A stretch of 37,968 nucleotides of DNA. It comes from a virus. A model generated the notes under the pieces. That model was not told the origin of the DNA and did not search any database. It saw only the letters and a list, made by a program, of their open reading frames with translations. This document shows, piece after piece, positions 25,580-35,147 of the stretch. The position numbers were made by a program, and so were the translations under genes. The stretch spans positions 1 through 37,968 of IMG/VR virus record IMGVR_UViG_3300020579_000317; one strand, 5' to 3'. Positions within the stretch are counted from its first letter, which is position 1. Each line of letters starts with the position of its first letter.

Positions 25580-25879
25580 CTACCCTTCGCCTTGTTCCTG
25601 CCCCACGGGAGCCACGCGATAGCCGCGCCACACAAAATTAAAATGCGCCTCCCCGAGCGGCACCAGTGAATATTCGAACGCAGGGAAGCGCTTCTCGAGG
25701 TCCTCAGAGATTTCATCCAGCATGTTCTCGATGGCCCGTCCGGTGAAACCCTTCCCTTGACCCGCGCGAATCCTGCGGACCGTCGAACCGCGGTTCTCCT
25801 CATTGAATACACGGAAGGTGACCGAGGTCCAGATCTGCCCCCCGATTTGGTCCTTCTCGAGTTTTGCAAAATGCTTCAT
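25580..25879 (-). CDS. Small protein of unknown function, 99 aa
   Basis: The 99-residue product is a mixed alpha/beta sequence with WTSVTFRVFNEENRGSTVRR (about 16-35), a helix ENMLDEISEDLEKRFP and a closing strand HFNFVWRGYRVAPV. The ATG at 25879 overlaps the methyltransferase stop as ATGA, so the longer upstream frame is a shadow. It lies between the methyltransferase and terminase genes; no family is recognised. Confidence 0.65.
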   Translation of the reverse strand: MKHFAKLEKDQIGGQIWTSVTFRVFNEENRGSTVRRIRAGQGKGFTGRAIENMLDEISEDLEKRFPAFEYSLVPLGEAHFNFVWRGYRVAPVGQEQGEG

Positions 25880-27186
25880 TGGCGTGTCTCCCTCTTGGCT
25901 TTTTTCCCCGTGGCCTGCTCCCATCGAAGCGCGATGACGTCACAGAACTTCGGCTCGAGTTCACAGAGGTAGGCGGTCCGGCCGAGCTTCTCGCATGAAA
26001 CGAGAGTCGAGCCGGAGCCGCCGAACGGGTCGAACACAAGGTCGTTCTTCTTTGTGGAATTGCGGAGCATCTTGTCGATGAGCGCGACCGGCTTCATCGT
26101 CGGATGGTCCTCGTTCTTTTTCGGCCGCGGTACTTTCACCACGGTGGTCTCGAGCTCCTCCACTGCGAGCTTCTCGCCGCGGATCTGAAACCACTGATCC
26201 CCGAGCCGGAGTCGGTAGAGATTCGGCTCGACCTGGGTGAGCGGAGCCTCGAGCATGAACTCGGAGATGGTTGTGGACTTCCGGTCGCCGTACCATTTGT
26301 GCGAGCCGGTCGGCTTCCAACCGTAGAGTATCGGCTCATGCTGCCACTGGTAATCGGAGCGGCCGAGCACGAGCGCGTCCTTGCACCAAATGAGGCAGCC
26401 GGCGAGCTTGAAACCCGCATCCCTAAACGCCCCGCGAAAGTTCAGCCCCTCGGTGTCAGCGTGGCAAACGTAGATCGCGCCGCCGTCCTTCAGGACGCGG
26501 AACATGACGGAGTACGCGCGGAGAAGGAACGTGCGGAACTTCCCGTCCTCCATGTCGTCGTTTTTGATTTTGCCGGCGCCGCCTTCGTAGTTCACGTTGT
26601 ACGGCGGATCCGTAAAGATCGCGTCGGCCTTCGCGCCGGCGAACAATTTCTCGATCACGAACGGGTCCGTGGAGTCCCCGCAGATCACGCGGTGCTTCCC
26701 GAGATGGATGAGCTCGCCGGGAAACGTCGTCGGCTTCGCCGGCGTCGCCGGCACCGCGTCCTCTTCGGCGCCTGGGAGCAGACCGCCCTGCTCGAGGTTC
26801 AGGAGCGCGTTGATCTCGTCAGCGTCGAAGCCGGTCGCCCCGAGATCGAATCCGAGCTTGCTCAAATCGCCGAGCTCGAGCGCGAGAAGTTCCTCGTCCC
26901 AGTCCGCTTCTTCGTGGACCCTGTTGTCCGCCAGGCGGTACGCCTTCACCTGTGCCGGCGAGAGATCGCCGGCGACCAGGACGGGGACCTCCTTCATCCC
27001 GAGCCTGAGAGCCGCGAGCAGTCTCGTGTGGCCGACGATGATCACGGAGTCTTTGTCCACCACGATAGGCTGCTTAAAACCGAACTCCTTAATCGATGCT
27101 GCTACTTTCTCGACAGCCTCGTCATTGCGTCGCGGATTCCGCTTGTACGGAATGACCTTATCGACGCTCCACATCTGAATTTTCAT
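25876..27186 (-). CDS. ParB-domain / DNA methyltransferase fusion
   Basis: The 436-residue protein has two modules. Residues about 1-130 are a ParB/sulfiredoxin-like domain (VIPYKRNPRRN, GFKQPIVVDKD, IVGHTRLLAALRLG, AYRLADNR). Residues about 150-436 are an amino-methyltransferase with DPPYNV at 193-198 before the SAM motif DPFGGSGST (about 393-401), the beta-class order. DPPY favours N6-adenine, although N4-cytosine cannot be excluded. Such fusions are common in phages and plasmids and probably modify phage DNA against host restriction. It directly precedes the packaging genes. An AGGGAG site precedes the ATG. Confidence 0.92.
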   Translation of the reverse strand: MKIQMWSVDKVIPYKRNPRRNDEAVEKVAASIKEFGFKQPIVVDKDSVIIVGHTRLLAALRLGMKEVPVLVAGDLSPAQVKAYRLADNRVHEEADWDEELLALELGDLSKLGFDLGATGFDADEINALLNLEQGGLLPGAEEDAVPATPAKPTTFPGELIHLGKHRVICGDSTDPFVIEKLFAGAKADAIFTDPPYNVNYEGGAGKIKNDDMEDGKFRTFLLRAYSVMFRVLKDGGAIYVCHADTEGLNFRGAFRDAGFKLAGCLIWCKDALVLGRSDYQWQHEPILYGWKPTGSHKWYGDRKSTTISEFMLEAPLTQVEPNLYRLRLGDQWFQIRGEKLAVEELETTVVKVPRPKKNEDHPTMKPVALIDKMLRNSTKKNDLVFDPFGGSGSTLVSCEKLGRTAYLCELEPKFCDVIALRWEQATGKKAKRETRQ

Positions 27187-29646: not shown

Positions 29647-30267
29647 TTAACCAGAGGTTTTGTATTTCTTCTGCAGCATCTCGAGCTGATCGCGGAGCAC
29701 GCGCCGCCGTTCCGCGAGTTGCTCTTCGGTTTTTTCCACACTCGGCACAGCGTGAGCGCGCGAAGCGCCGGAGATTTTCTCTTCTGGTTTACTTCTTACT
29801 TCTTTGCGGGGACACTTCTGTCCCCACGAAAGGGACACATCTGTCCCCACGGCGACTGCTGTTTTCCGCTTCTTATCCACAGCCTTTCCACGCGATATCG
29901 ACAGCGGCTGTGGAGAATAAAGTGGGAGCTGCGTCGCCGGAGCGGGGACTTCACCCGCCCATTTCGCGGAGCCGAGAAGCGTCACGATCATGCCGTCGGA
30001 CATCCCGGCCTTGCGGATCCGCACGAGACCCGCGCGCTTGAGCTTCGCCATGTGGCGCTTCAGCGTGCGGATCACCGGCCGCTCGTCTGGGTTCCCGGGC
30101 CATCGAGAGAGAATCCACGCGTAGGAGATCGCGTGGCCGTAGAACACGCGCCCTGATGCATCGGTTTGATTGTGGGTGAGCAGATCGTGAAGAGCGGTTG
30201 CAGAGCCGAGCTTCCACTGAGCTGGTCGGTCGGGATGGATAGCCACGAATCGGAACTTGGAACTCAC
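29647..30267 (-). CDS. Winged-helix replication initiator-like protein
   Basis: The 206-residue product has an N-terminal winged-helix-type domain (about residues 10-100: WKLGSATALHDLLTHN, then IRTLKRHMAKLKRAGLVRIRK), the layout of phage replication proteins of the O/helix-turn-helix type. A flexible, charged middle follows, then a C-terminal coiled coil (about 175-203). The gene itself carries two tandem inverted-repeat iterons and a perfect DnaA box, as lambda O carries its origin. The GTG at 30267 overlaps the upstream nuclease stop as GTGA. The initiator role is inferred from the domain and the internal repeats, not from a family match. Confidence 0.65.
   Translation of the reverse strand: MSSKFRFVAIHPDRPAQWKLGSATALHDLLTHNQTDASGRVFYGHAISYAWILSRWPGNPDERPVIRTLKRHMAKLKRAGLVRIRKAGMSDGMIVTLLGSAKWAGEVPAPATQLPLYSPQPLSISRGKAVDKKRKTAVAVGTDVSLSWGQKCPRKEVRSKPEEKISGASRAHAVPSVEKTEEQLAERRRVLRDQLEMLQKKYKTSG
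29732..29917. other. Candidate phage replication origin (iterons plus DnaA boxes)
   Basis: Two near-identical 19-base units, GGGACAC(T/A)TCTGTCCCCAC, lie at 29809-29827 and 29832-29850. Each contains an inverted repeat (29808-29825, 7 bp arms; 29832-29847, 6 bp arms), and they repeat every 23 bases. Next to them is a low-GC pyrimidine tract (29774-29805). A perfect DnaA box TTATCCACA lies at 29873-29881, with one-mismatch boxes at 29732-29740 (TTTTCCACA) and 29909-29917 (TTCTCCACA on the minus strand). All of it is inside the initiator-like gene, as in lambda. Confidence 0.6.
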
Positions 30268-30764
30268 CGGAGCGCCCTCCGATTCAGAGCGAGCCGTTCC
30301 CCGAGATATTCCTCGACGTCCTTCGAACTCCACGCCACGAGCACGACGGCGCCGCGGCGGTGCTTCTCGAACAGGAAGTCGAGCTGCTCCTGCGATGGTT
30401 GACCGGCGCGACGGATTACTTTCGCGTTAGCGTCGAGCCACGCGGGAGCTTTCACCTCGACGTAGAGAGAGCGACCGTCTGGAGCGAGCGTGGCCTCAAG
30501 GTCCGAGAATCCAGACGGGATCGCGGCGCCTGTTTTCGCGTTCTGGATGCCGGCGAGATTGATGCCGGCGGATTTCGCCGCGGCCATCATCCGACCGCGC
30601 TGCCTGCGTCCGCCGGCGTCGATGGCAACCAGGTCGACGTTGTATACGGACATCAGCGCGAGAATGTCCGATTGCACTTCCGCCTCGGTGACTTGGCGCA
30701 TGAGATACAGACTTGAATAACGAGCGCCTTCGAACCTCCAGGGGAATGGGTAGTGTCCGCTCAA
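30264..30764 (-). CDS. VRR-NUC domain nuclease
   Basis: The 166-residue protein matches the VRR-NUC (PD-D/ExK-type) nuclease domain, common in phages next to replication genes. After TEAEVQSDILALMSVYNVDLV (about residues 26-46), it shows the core GFSDLEATL (Asp88) and LYVEVKAP (Glu103, Lys105), then SQEQLDFLFEKHRRGAVVLVAW. Such enzymes act on branched or replication-intermediate DNA. The TTG start at 30764 overlaps the upstream stop as TTGA. An internal ATG (residue 22) is an alternative start that would keep the whole domain. Confidence 0.9.
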   Translation of the reverse strand: MSGHYPFPWRFEGARYSSLYLMRQVTEAEVQSDILALMSVYNVDLVAIDAGGRRQRGRMMAAAKSAGINLAGIQNAKTGAAIPSGFSDLEATLAPDGRSLYVEVKAPAWLDANAKVIRRAGQPSQEQLDFLFEKHRRGAVVLVAWSSKDVEEYLGERLALNRRALR

Positions 30765-33762: not shown

Positions 33763-33915
33763 TCACTGAGTGCCACTGCCGGTGCCAAGGTTTTTCGACG
33801 ATTTCCGGCGGATCGGCGGCGCCTCTTTGCACGCCGTGCAGAGCCTGTGATTGCAGCGGGGACAGATGAACTTCCGCGTGACCTTCCGGCAGTTACAGCA
33901 CACGAGCCGACTCAT
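33763..33915 (-). CDS. Mini zinc-finger protein, 50 aa
   Basis: Translating the minus strand from ATG at 33915 gives 50 residues: SRLVCCNCRKVTRKFICPRC, then NHRLCTACKEAPP and a basic Ser/Lys tail. The spacing (C6, C7, C9, C18, C21, C26, C29) fits a cross-braced zinc ribbon. The ATG overlaps the methyltransferase stop as ATGA, with GGAGG upstream. The codons are unbroken and the Cys pattern is regular, so this short gene is probably real. It is shorter than the usual cutoff for gene callers. Confidence 0.75.
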   Translation of the reverse strand: MSRLVCCNCRKVTRKFICPRCNHRLCTACKEAPPIRRKSSKNLGTGSGTQ

Positions 33916-35147
33916 GTCAGGAGCCTCCGAGTAAGTACCGCGAACGCGACGCCAGCCTGCAGCGCCACAACGCCATTTCCGACCGCGCGAAGCTGATCGG
34001 TCCGGTGCTCGTCCACCACCACGGCATCCCCATCAGCCAAGCCGCAAACGCCGGGTTCAATCGCCGGCGCGAGCCACGGATCGGCGGCGAGGATGTCTCC
34101 CCATCGGGGATCTCCGGGACCTGGAGCGAAAATATCTGCTCCGCCGCTTCGTCGAGTTGACCCCGCCGCTGTCCCTCCACCGCGCTCCCCTTCCAATCGT
34201 TCGCTCCCGCGCTCGGCCAGCGCGACACCGCCACCGTCAAATCCGCGAAGCCTCCCTCCCTCGATCGAGATGGACCCCCGCAGTTGTTCGCGTTGTCTTC
34301 CGTCGGCGTCGGCCAGAACATCCGCGCTTGTCCCTCGAGCAGGAGCTCGTCCTTCCGATCCCCGCTCCTCGACGAGTTCCCCCCGCCGACGCCCCTTGGT
34401 GTTTGCCAAAGCATCGTTTCGATTTGCATGCTCGGAGTTCGGCGCGCCATCTCGGACGGACAAATTCCCCGATCCATTTCGCTCGCCTTCGGCGTTTGCC
34501 AGAGATCGCGATTCAGGTGAGCGCCCTCGCCCGAGATCGCCGTCGGCGTGTTCCAATTCCGCGTCACGCCAGTGAGCGAGTCGCTCGCACCGTTCGGATG
34601 ATTCCCGCAGGATTCGCCGTCCTCCGCGCGCGTCGACGGCCAGGATGAAGACTCTCTTACGGAGATGGGCGGCGCCCACGTCGGCTGCGGAAAGAGAACA
34701 CCACTCCGCATCGAACCCGAGTCCGGCAAGGTCTCCGAATACGCGATTGATTCCTCGTCCAGCAACGAGGCCTGGGACATTCTCAAGAAAAACGACGGGC
34801 GGCTCGACGGCTCGGATGATCCCGGCGATTGCTGGCCAGAGCCATCGGTCGTCGGCTTCGCCTTGCTGCTTTCCTGCAGCGCTCCACGGCTGGCACGGGA
34901 AGCCAGCAGTGATGCAGTCCACTGCTCCACGCCACTCCCGGCTCGGGAAATCTTCAAGAGGTCCGCACCAAATAGGTGCTGGCTCCAACGCCGCGTCTCC
35001 CATCCGCGCCAAGAGAATTCCCTGAGCAAAGGCTTCCCGCTCGACGTAACCCACAGTCCGCGCCTCGGGCAGAGCGATGCGAACTCCTTCATCGAGCATC
35101 GCTGTGCCGGAGCAAAGCGAGAGGACATGGAAGGCGGAATCAGCCAC
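33912..35147 (-). CDS. DNA cytosine-C5 methyltransferase
   Basis: The 411-residue protein carries the C5-methyltransferase motifs in order: I LSLCSGTAMLDEG (9-21), IV GFPCQPWS (82-89, catalytic Cys85), VI ENVPGL (122-127), VIII RKRVFILA (164-171) and X QLRAVGNG (about 387-394). The region between (about 180-370) is the variable target-recognition part, with repeated A-D/N-x-x-G motifs (LANAEG, LANTKG, LADADG). It methylates phage or host DNA, probably for protection from restriction. A second long frame overlaps nearly all of it. The ATG at 35147 overlaps the upstream winged-helix gene by 8 bases. Confidence 0.92.
   Translation of the reverse strand: MADSAFHVLSLCSGTAMLDEGVRIALPEARTVGYVEREAFAQGILLARMGDAALEPAPIWCGPLEDFPSREWRGAVDCITAGFPCQPWSAAGKQQGEADDRWLWPAIAGIIRAVEPPVVFLENVPGLVAGRGINRVFGDLAGLGFDAEWCSLSAADVGAAHLRKRVFILAVDARGGRRILRESSERCERLAHWRDAELEHADGDLGRGRSPESRSLANAEGERNGSGNLSVRDGAPNSEHANRNDALANTKGRRRGELVEERGSEGRAPARGTSADVLADADGRQREQLRGSISIEGGRLRGFDGGGVALAERGSERLEGERGGGTAAGSTRRSGGADIFAPGPGDPRWGDILAADPWLAPAIEPGVCGLADGDAVVVDEHRTDQLRAVGNGVVALQAGVAFAVLTRRLLT

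Follow-up and report, generated by a model that had tools for sequence, protein, structure and literature searches.

The putative initiator gene and its internal repeats

The DNA analysed here, hereafter the window, is the whole of a 37,968-base IMG/VR record. The phage it encodes is tailed and probably temperate, with recognisable genes for terminase, major head, tail, endolysin and integrase. It also has genes for a ParB-N6/N4 methyltransferase fusion, at 25876-27186, and for a C5 cytosine methyltransferase, at 33912-35147. Two iterons, three DnaA-type boxes and an AT-rich tract (Table 1) all lie within the minus-strand open reading frame (ORF) 29647-30333. The start at 30267 is likelier than the one at 30333, because the related protein of contig L141 aligns only from 30267. 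The gene immediately upstream, at 30264-30764, resembles endonucleases or Holliday-junction resolvases in PHROGs, and in Arthrobacter phage Abidatro a RusA-like gene likewise precedes the initiator gene.

Table 1. Features of the initiator locus in window coordinates; L027 and L141 are the viral contigs that encode relatives of the window protein.
Feature	Position	Strand	Remarks
Putative replication initiator gene	29647..30267	-	Alternative start 30333; weak profile similarity to phage initiators
Predicted winged-helix region	29974..30201	-	Residues 45-120 of the 228-aa reading
Arg93 codon	30055..30057	-	Recognition-helix residue that goes with CA-ending half-sites
One-mismatch DnaA-type 9-mer	29909..29917	-	TTCTCCACA; lost in both relatives
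DnaA-type 9-mer	29873..29881	+	TTATCCACA; kept in L027, reads TTTTCCACA in L141
Iteron 1 (coding order)	29831..29848	-	GGGGACAGATGTGTCCCT, read as GTDVS
Iteron 2	29808..29825	-	GGGGACAGAAGTGTCCCC, read as GQKCP, in another frame than iteron 1
AT-rich tract, candidate unwinding element	29774..29805	-	Directly 3' of the last iteron
One-mismatch DnaA-type 9-mer	29732..29740	+	TTTTCCACA; kept in L027, altered in L141

The window protein is below detection by PHROG and Pfam and is tied to the HTH_36 initiators only by profile comparison. No significant Pfam match was obtained (none at E 0.01; the best was HTH_20, E 0.017), neither HTH_36 (PF13730) nor RepA_N was matched in Pfam, and PHROG gave no O-like match. 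A tblastn search of the protein against named phages returned nothing, and a PDB fold search with the first structure model gave no match at E below 0.001. The structure models, including a second one of the domain alone, are of low confidence; they predict the order helix-helix-helix-helix-strand-strand for the winged-helix region. With hhalign, this region was matched to the winged helices of the initiators with a probability of 75% (E 2.5e-5), and Arg93 was aligned to their invariant Arg. The recognition helix carries R93 and L98, matching the invariant Arg and Leu of the HTH_36 initiators. A winged-helix profile trained without the relatives of the window gives its protein only 7 bits; a score of 37 bits, inflated by the presence of these relatives in the training set, was not used. 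We consider the protein a distant member of the group, whose winged helix is weakly supported on its own. No helicase or helicase loader was recognised beside the gene; in several named phages, a loader or DnaB helicase gene comes after the initiator gene.

The two 19-mers described in the sequence-only reading, 23 nt apart, were found as described and lie at 29809-29827 and 29832-29850. Their palindromic core is GGACA-N4-TGTCC, and the two copies are read in different frames, which had been missed in that reading. With up to two mismatches allowed, the window contains two copies of the palindrome GGGGACA-N4-TGTCCCC, where 0.11 would be expected from shuffled sequence. Two copies were seen in no shuffle out of 100; the pair is not expected by chance. 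Both iterons are located in the linker between the winged-helix-like region and the C-terminal helix of the ORF. The low-GC tract that had been reported next to them is equally present, with 28% GC in a 61% GC genome: GC this low is found in only 16 of the 37,937 32-mers of the record, which fall at three places, the tract being one of them.

The one perfect and two one-mismatch DnaA boxes of the sequence-only reading were all recovered, and the order on the coding strand is box, iteron, iteron, AT tract, box. Across the whole window, five boxes with at most one mismatch occur against 2.5 expected, and three of the five lie within 186 nt. An imperfect 15-nt inverted repeat within 29870-29920 has two of the DnaA-type boxes as its arms. 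The GC-skew switch anticipated at the iterons did not materialise, the skew being silent there.

Only two relatives are known, namely the viral contigs L027 and, more distant, L141, which encode the window protein with 85% and 68% identity. Both retain a pair of iterons spaced by 23 nt and, next to it, the AT tract, with little change. In L141, same-residue codons are identical in 22 of 23 cases within the iteron/AT stretch, compared with 84 of 118 elsewhere (p 0.015). The corresponding conservation in the closer relative is not significant (p 0.11), so that the proposed conservation of the iteron DNA beyond what the amino acids require is significant against L141 only. The DNA of the SISRGK-coding stretch next to the two boxes within 29870-29920 is also nearly unchanged among the three relatives.

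Tandem palindromes in initiator genes of other phages

We scanned 2.9 million IMG/VR viral contigs for tandem palindromes, blind to the proteins. The strict form was found in nine contigs which include, besides the relatives, several unrelated phages carrying the pair in the linker after the winged helix. The relaxed form, GGACA-N4-TGTCC twice within 25 nt, occurred in at least 120 stretches, compared with 6 in a permuted control of the same composition. Among the matches listed, the ORFs from this relaxed scan form 95 clusters at 70% identity, and 94 distinct sequences or loci, including the window, were scanned against Pfam and PHROG. Among these listed matches, about two thirds of the 94 loci have the repeats inside a winged-helix gene, and Pfam assigns HTH_36 to 55 of the 94 ORFs. 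In the same set, the PHROG families matched most often comprise replication initiation, O-like and DnaD-like proteins (54, 48, 45, 43 and 38 members of 94). Most tandem GGACA loci in viral contigs are, as far as the listed matches go, of the HTH_36-initiator kind. Other ORFs at the same loci match the initiator profile in about 0.6% of cases.

More than one reading frame is used by the copies in 52 of 63 winged-helix ORFs among the matches listed, and a separate count gave 34 of 40. Owing to this change of frame, the repeat is translated now as DKNVP, now as RTKMS or GQKCP; the conserved element is the DNA, not the peptide. The spacing between copies is most often 22-24 nt, and a lesser maximum lies at 31-34 nt. 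The 40 nt located 3' of the last copy exceed their surroundings in AT content by 13 and 18 points (SE below 2), a difference of at least seven standard errors that has no counterpart on the 5' side. This AT-rich position is also the place of the AT tract in the window. In lambda, an AT-rich tract lies beside the iterons, on their 3' side. The strict motif is absent from TP901-1 rep and from 11 named phage initiators and is therefore not universal; variants (TAACA, TGACA and GGCCA) are carried by some of these named initiators and by others.

Related repeats were also seen in other settings. An Acidobacteria genome contig (L063:2340-2420) exhibits three GGGACA-type palindromes (RDRSVPDRDKVVPDADRSVP) in a winged-helix ORF and is probably a prophage or element with the same type of origin. 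A group of related phage contigs (L006-L009, L011-L013, L017, L019, L023, L024, L026 and L028) carries GGGACACTTCTGTCCC beside many TCCCAAA/TTTGGGAC units, outside any winged-helix ORF by profile (e.g. L006:1100-1330), which is possibly another iteron array. The 16-mer GGGACACWTCTGTCCC occurs in one conserved context, before a hairpin-like stretch CCTTCCCTTCTCTGTTGTGCAGGGAAGG, in many Bradyrhizobium genomes (L037, L041, L049, L051, L061 and others).

Half-sites and the recognition-helix residue

Eighty relatives of one clostridial-type initiator were gathered by protein alone, which removes selection on the motif. At least two strict GGACA palindromes are present in 28 of them and a single or degenerate one in 28 more, while in the rest GGAAG (nine ORFs), GGCAG or CGACA can replace GGACA. 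All the GGACA proteins of this set have an Arg before a Trp (RRW, SRW or QRW). Ser or Asp stands in place of that Arg in the GGAAG and GGCAG proteins; in the two CGACA proteins the Arg is present and follows a Glu. All 39 diverse GGACA initiators that were aligned share this Arg, which is equivalent to Arg93 in the window.

The prediction that tandem GGAAG loci elsewhere would lack the Arg was set beforehand and tested by a fresh scan. Tandem GGAAG-N4-CTTCC was found in 31 contigs, 21 of which have a winged-helix ORF spanning the pair. None of these 21 genes encodes the Arg, compared with 89 of 93 GGACA genes among the matches listed, and 20 of the 21 encode an Arg one position earlier. The difference persists between clusters at 70% identity (58/62 for GGACA against 0/13 for GGAAG, Fisher p 2e-11) and at 50% identity (41/45 against 0/12, p 3e-9). 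The training sequences of the profile that defined winged-helix ORFs had Arg or Lys at the recognition position, yet the Arg-less GGAAG proteins pass it as well.

Named elements with the Arg include Lactobacillus phages c5 and PMBT4 and a Monoglobus plasmid, which have TAACA, Bifidobacterium phage PMBT6, which has TGACA, and Geobacillus phage PK5.2, which has GGCCA. The division of half-sites into CA-ending and AG-ending ones is post hoc, drawn up after these named elements, and wants a fresh test. The link between residue and half-site rests on related proteins. On trees the switches are consistent with it, but of the 11 independent switches that the domain tree allows only two are on well-supported branches; tree tests alone are underpowered.

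As the repeat type follows the recognition-helix residue, each initiator most likely binds the iterons in its own gene, although this is inferred and no experiment has been made. More generally, a large and diverse set of phage winged-helix initiators probably share one recognition scheme, with arm-N4-arm iterons in the linker of the gene itself. In this scheme, Arg at one recognition-helix position would specify CA-ending half-sites (GGACA, CGACA, TAACA, TGACA and GGCCA), and a small or polar residue there, with an Arg just before it, would specify AG-ending ones (GGAAG and GGCAG). We found no report of a shared half-site or residue rule in the open-access literature, most subscription papers being outside the search. 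The shared half-site and the recognition rule appear to be new, whereas in-gene origins were already known (lambda O, RepA_N).

A probable origin within the initiator gene

Of the features of a lambda-O-type in-gene origin, as proposed in the sequence-only reading, tandem iterons in the initiator gene and an AT-rich tract beside them are both present, and the comparison strongly supports the proposal, since the relatives and many unrelated initiators share the layout. We consider it very likely that the iterons are the replication origin of the phage, sited in the linker of the gene for its initiator; this assessment derives from sequence comparison, and binding and replication are inferred. 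The starting points are computed observations: the anatomy, conservation, position and frame independence of the repeats, the AT tract, and the way in which half-site and residue change together. What follows from here is inference. Dimers of the initiator would use the winged helix to bind the pair of palindromic iterons, with each recognition helix reading one GGACA half-site and Arg93 contacting the inner CA/TG. As the iterons are about two helical turns apart, they would lie on one face of the DNA. The bound complex would then open the adjacent AT-rich tract, where the host helicase would be loaded, possibly with some help from host DnaA.

Several known systems resemble this arrangement in part. 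The HTH_36 initiators (PF13730, PHROG 270/428 and others) exhibit the same layout and the same invariant Arg as the window. RepA_N plasmid initiators use an N-terminal winged helix to bind repeats located midway along the gene that encodes them, and the linker is dispensable (PMC5703833). The rep gene of the Staphylococcus plasmid pSK41, of this type, has GGACAC units 23 nt apart, the same spacing as in the window, but its half-sites are TGTC-AAAA-GGACA, converging on an A tract, instead of GGACA-N4-TGTCC. Lambdoid O origins have inverted-repeat iterons inside the initiator gene, with CCCTC/GAGGG as the half-site and not GGACA (PMC7466680). RepA of PLE, a Vibrio cholerae satellite, is a winged-helix initiator that binds semi-palindromic iterons (PMC7145576), but these, unlike those of the window, lie outside the gene in noncoding DNA. 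RepA-type mycobacterial prophages have a helix-turn-helix RepA and an origin suspected in or next to repA, but, unlike in the window, no repeated motif in the regions examined (PMC7157519).

An alternative is that the palindromes are an operator, through which the protein represses or stalls transcription of its own operon, the origin being elsewhere. Palindrome-binding winged-helix proteins are often repressors, and the evidence for binding fits both roles alike. Nevertheless, repressor sites usually lie at promoters, whereas these are tandem sites in the middle of a gene, with helical spacing and an AT tract behind them, and PHROG classes the families as replication initiators. An operator without an origin is thus unlikely in our opinion, although the two roles can coexist. 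We find it still harder to credit an origin acting mainly via host DnaA on the three boxes, with the palindromes secondary. The clustering of the boxes within 186 nt, and the presence of a perfect one kept in L027, speak for such an origin, but boxes occur near the iterons in only 5 of the 63 winged-helix loci (7 sites against 3.3 expected), and one box of the window is lost in both relatives. The boxes of the window are real, but the support that they had been thought to lend to an origin is not general.

Two further readings are already contradicted. Since the same 16-mer is present in over 100 bacterial contigs, the repeats could be a dispersed, REP-like host element that landed in the gene; this is very improbable, as the 16-mer is single and in other contexts in most genome contigs, whereas the tandem form is concentrated in the initiator linkers of unrelated phages and its half-site varies with the protein. 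It is scarcely conceivable that the repeat encodes a functional peptide (GTDVS, GQKCP, DKNVP) of which the DNA is a by-product. Such peptide repeats do look conserved within each protein, but all three frames are used to read the palindrome, and most genes, as counted above, use more than one.

In-gene iterons bound by their own initiator remain our preferred reading. The GGACA word, found at the same place in dozens of unrelated phages and changing together with one amino acid, is, judged from these sequences, very probably an origin. Most phage origins, above all those of uncultured phages, are unmapped, and with a repeat of fixed layout whose sequence one recognition-helix residue predicts, origins could be called by sequence. 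Such a repeat would also offer a simple test of how initiator and origin evolve jointly when the same stretch of DNA encodes both. If the shared recognition scheme is true, both the origins and the incompatibility of uncultured phages would be readable from sequence.
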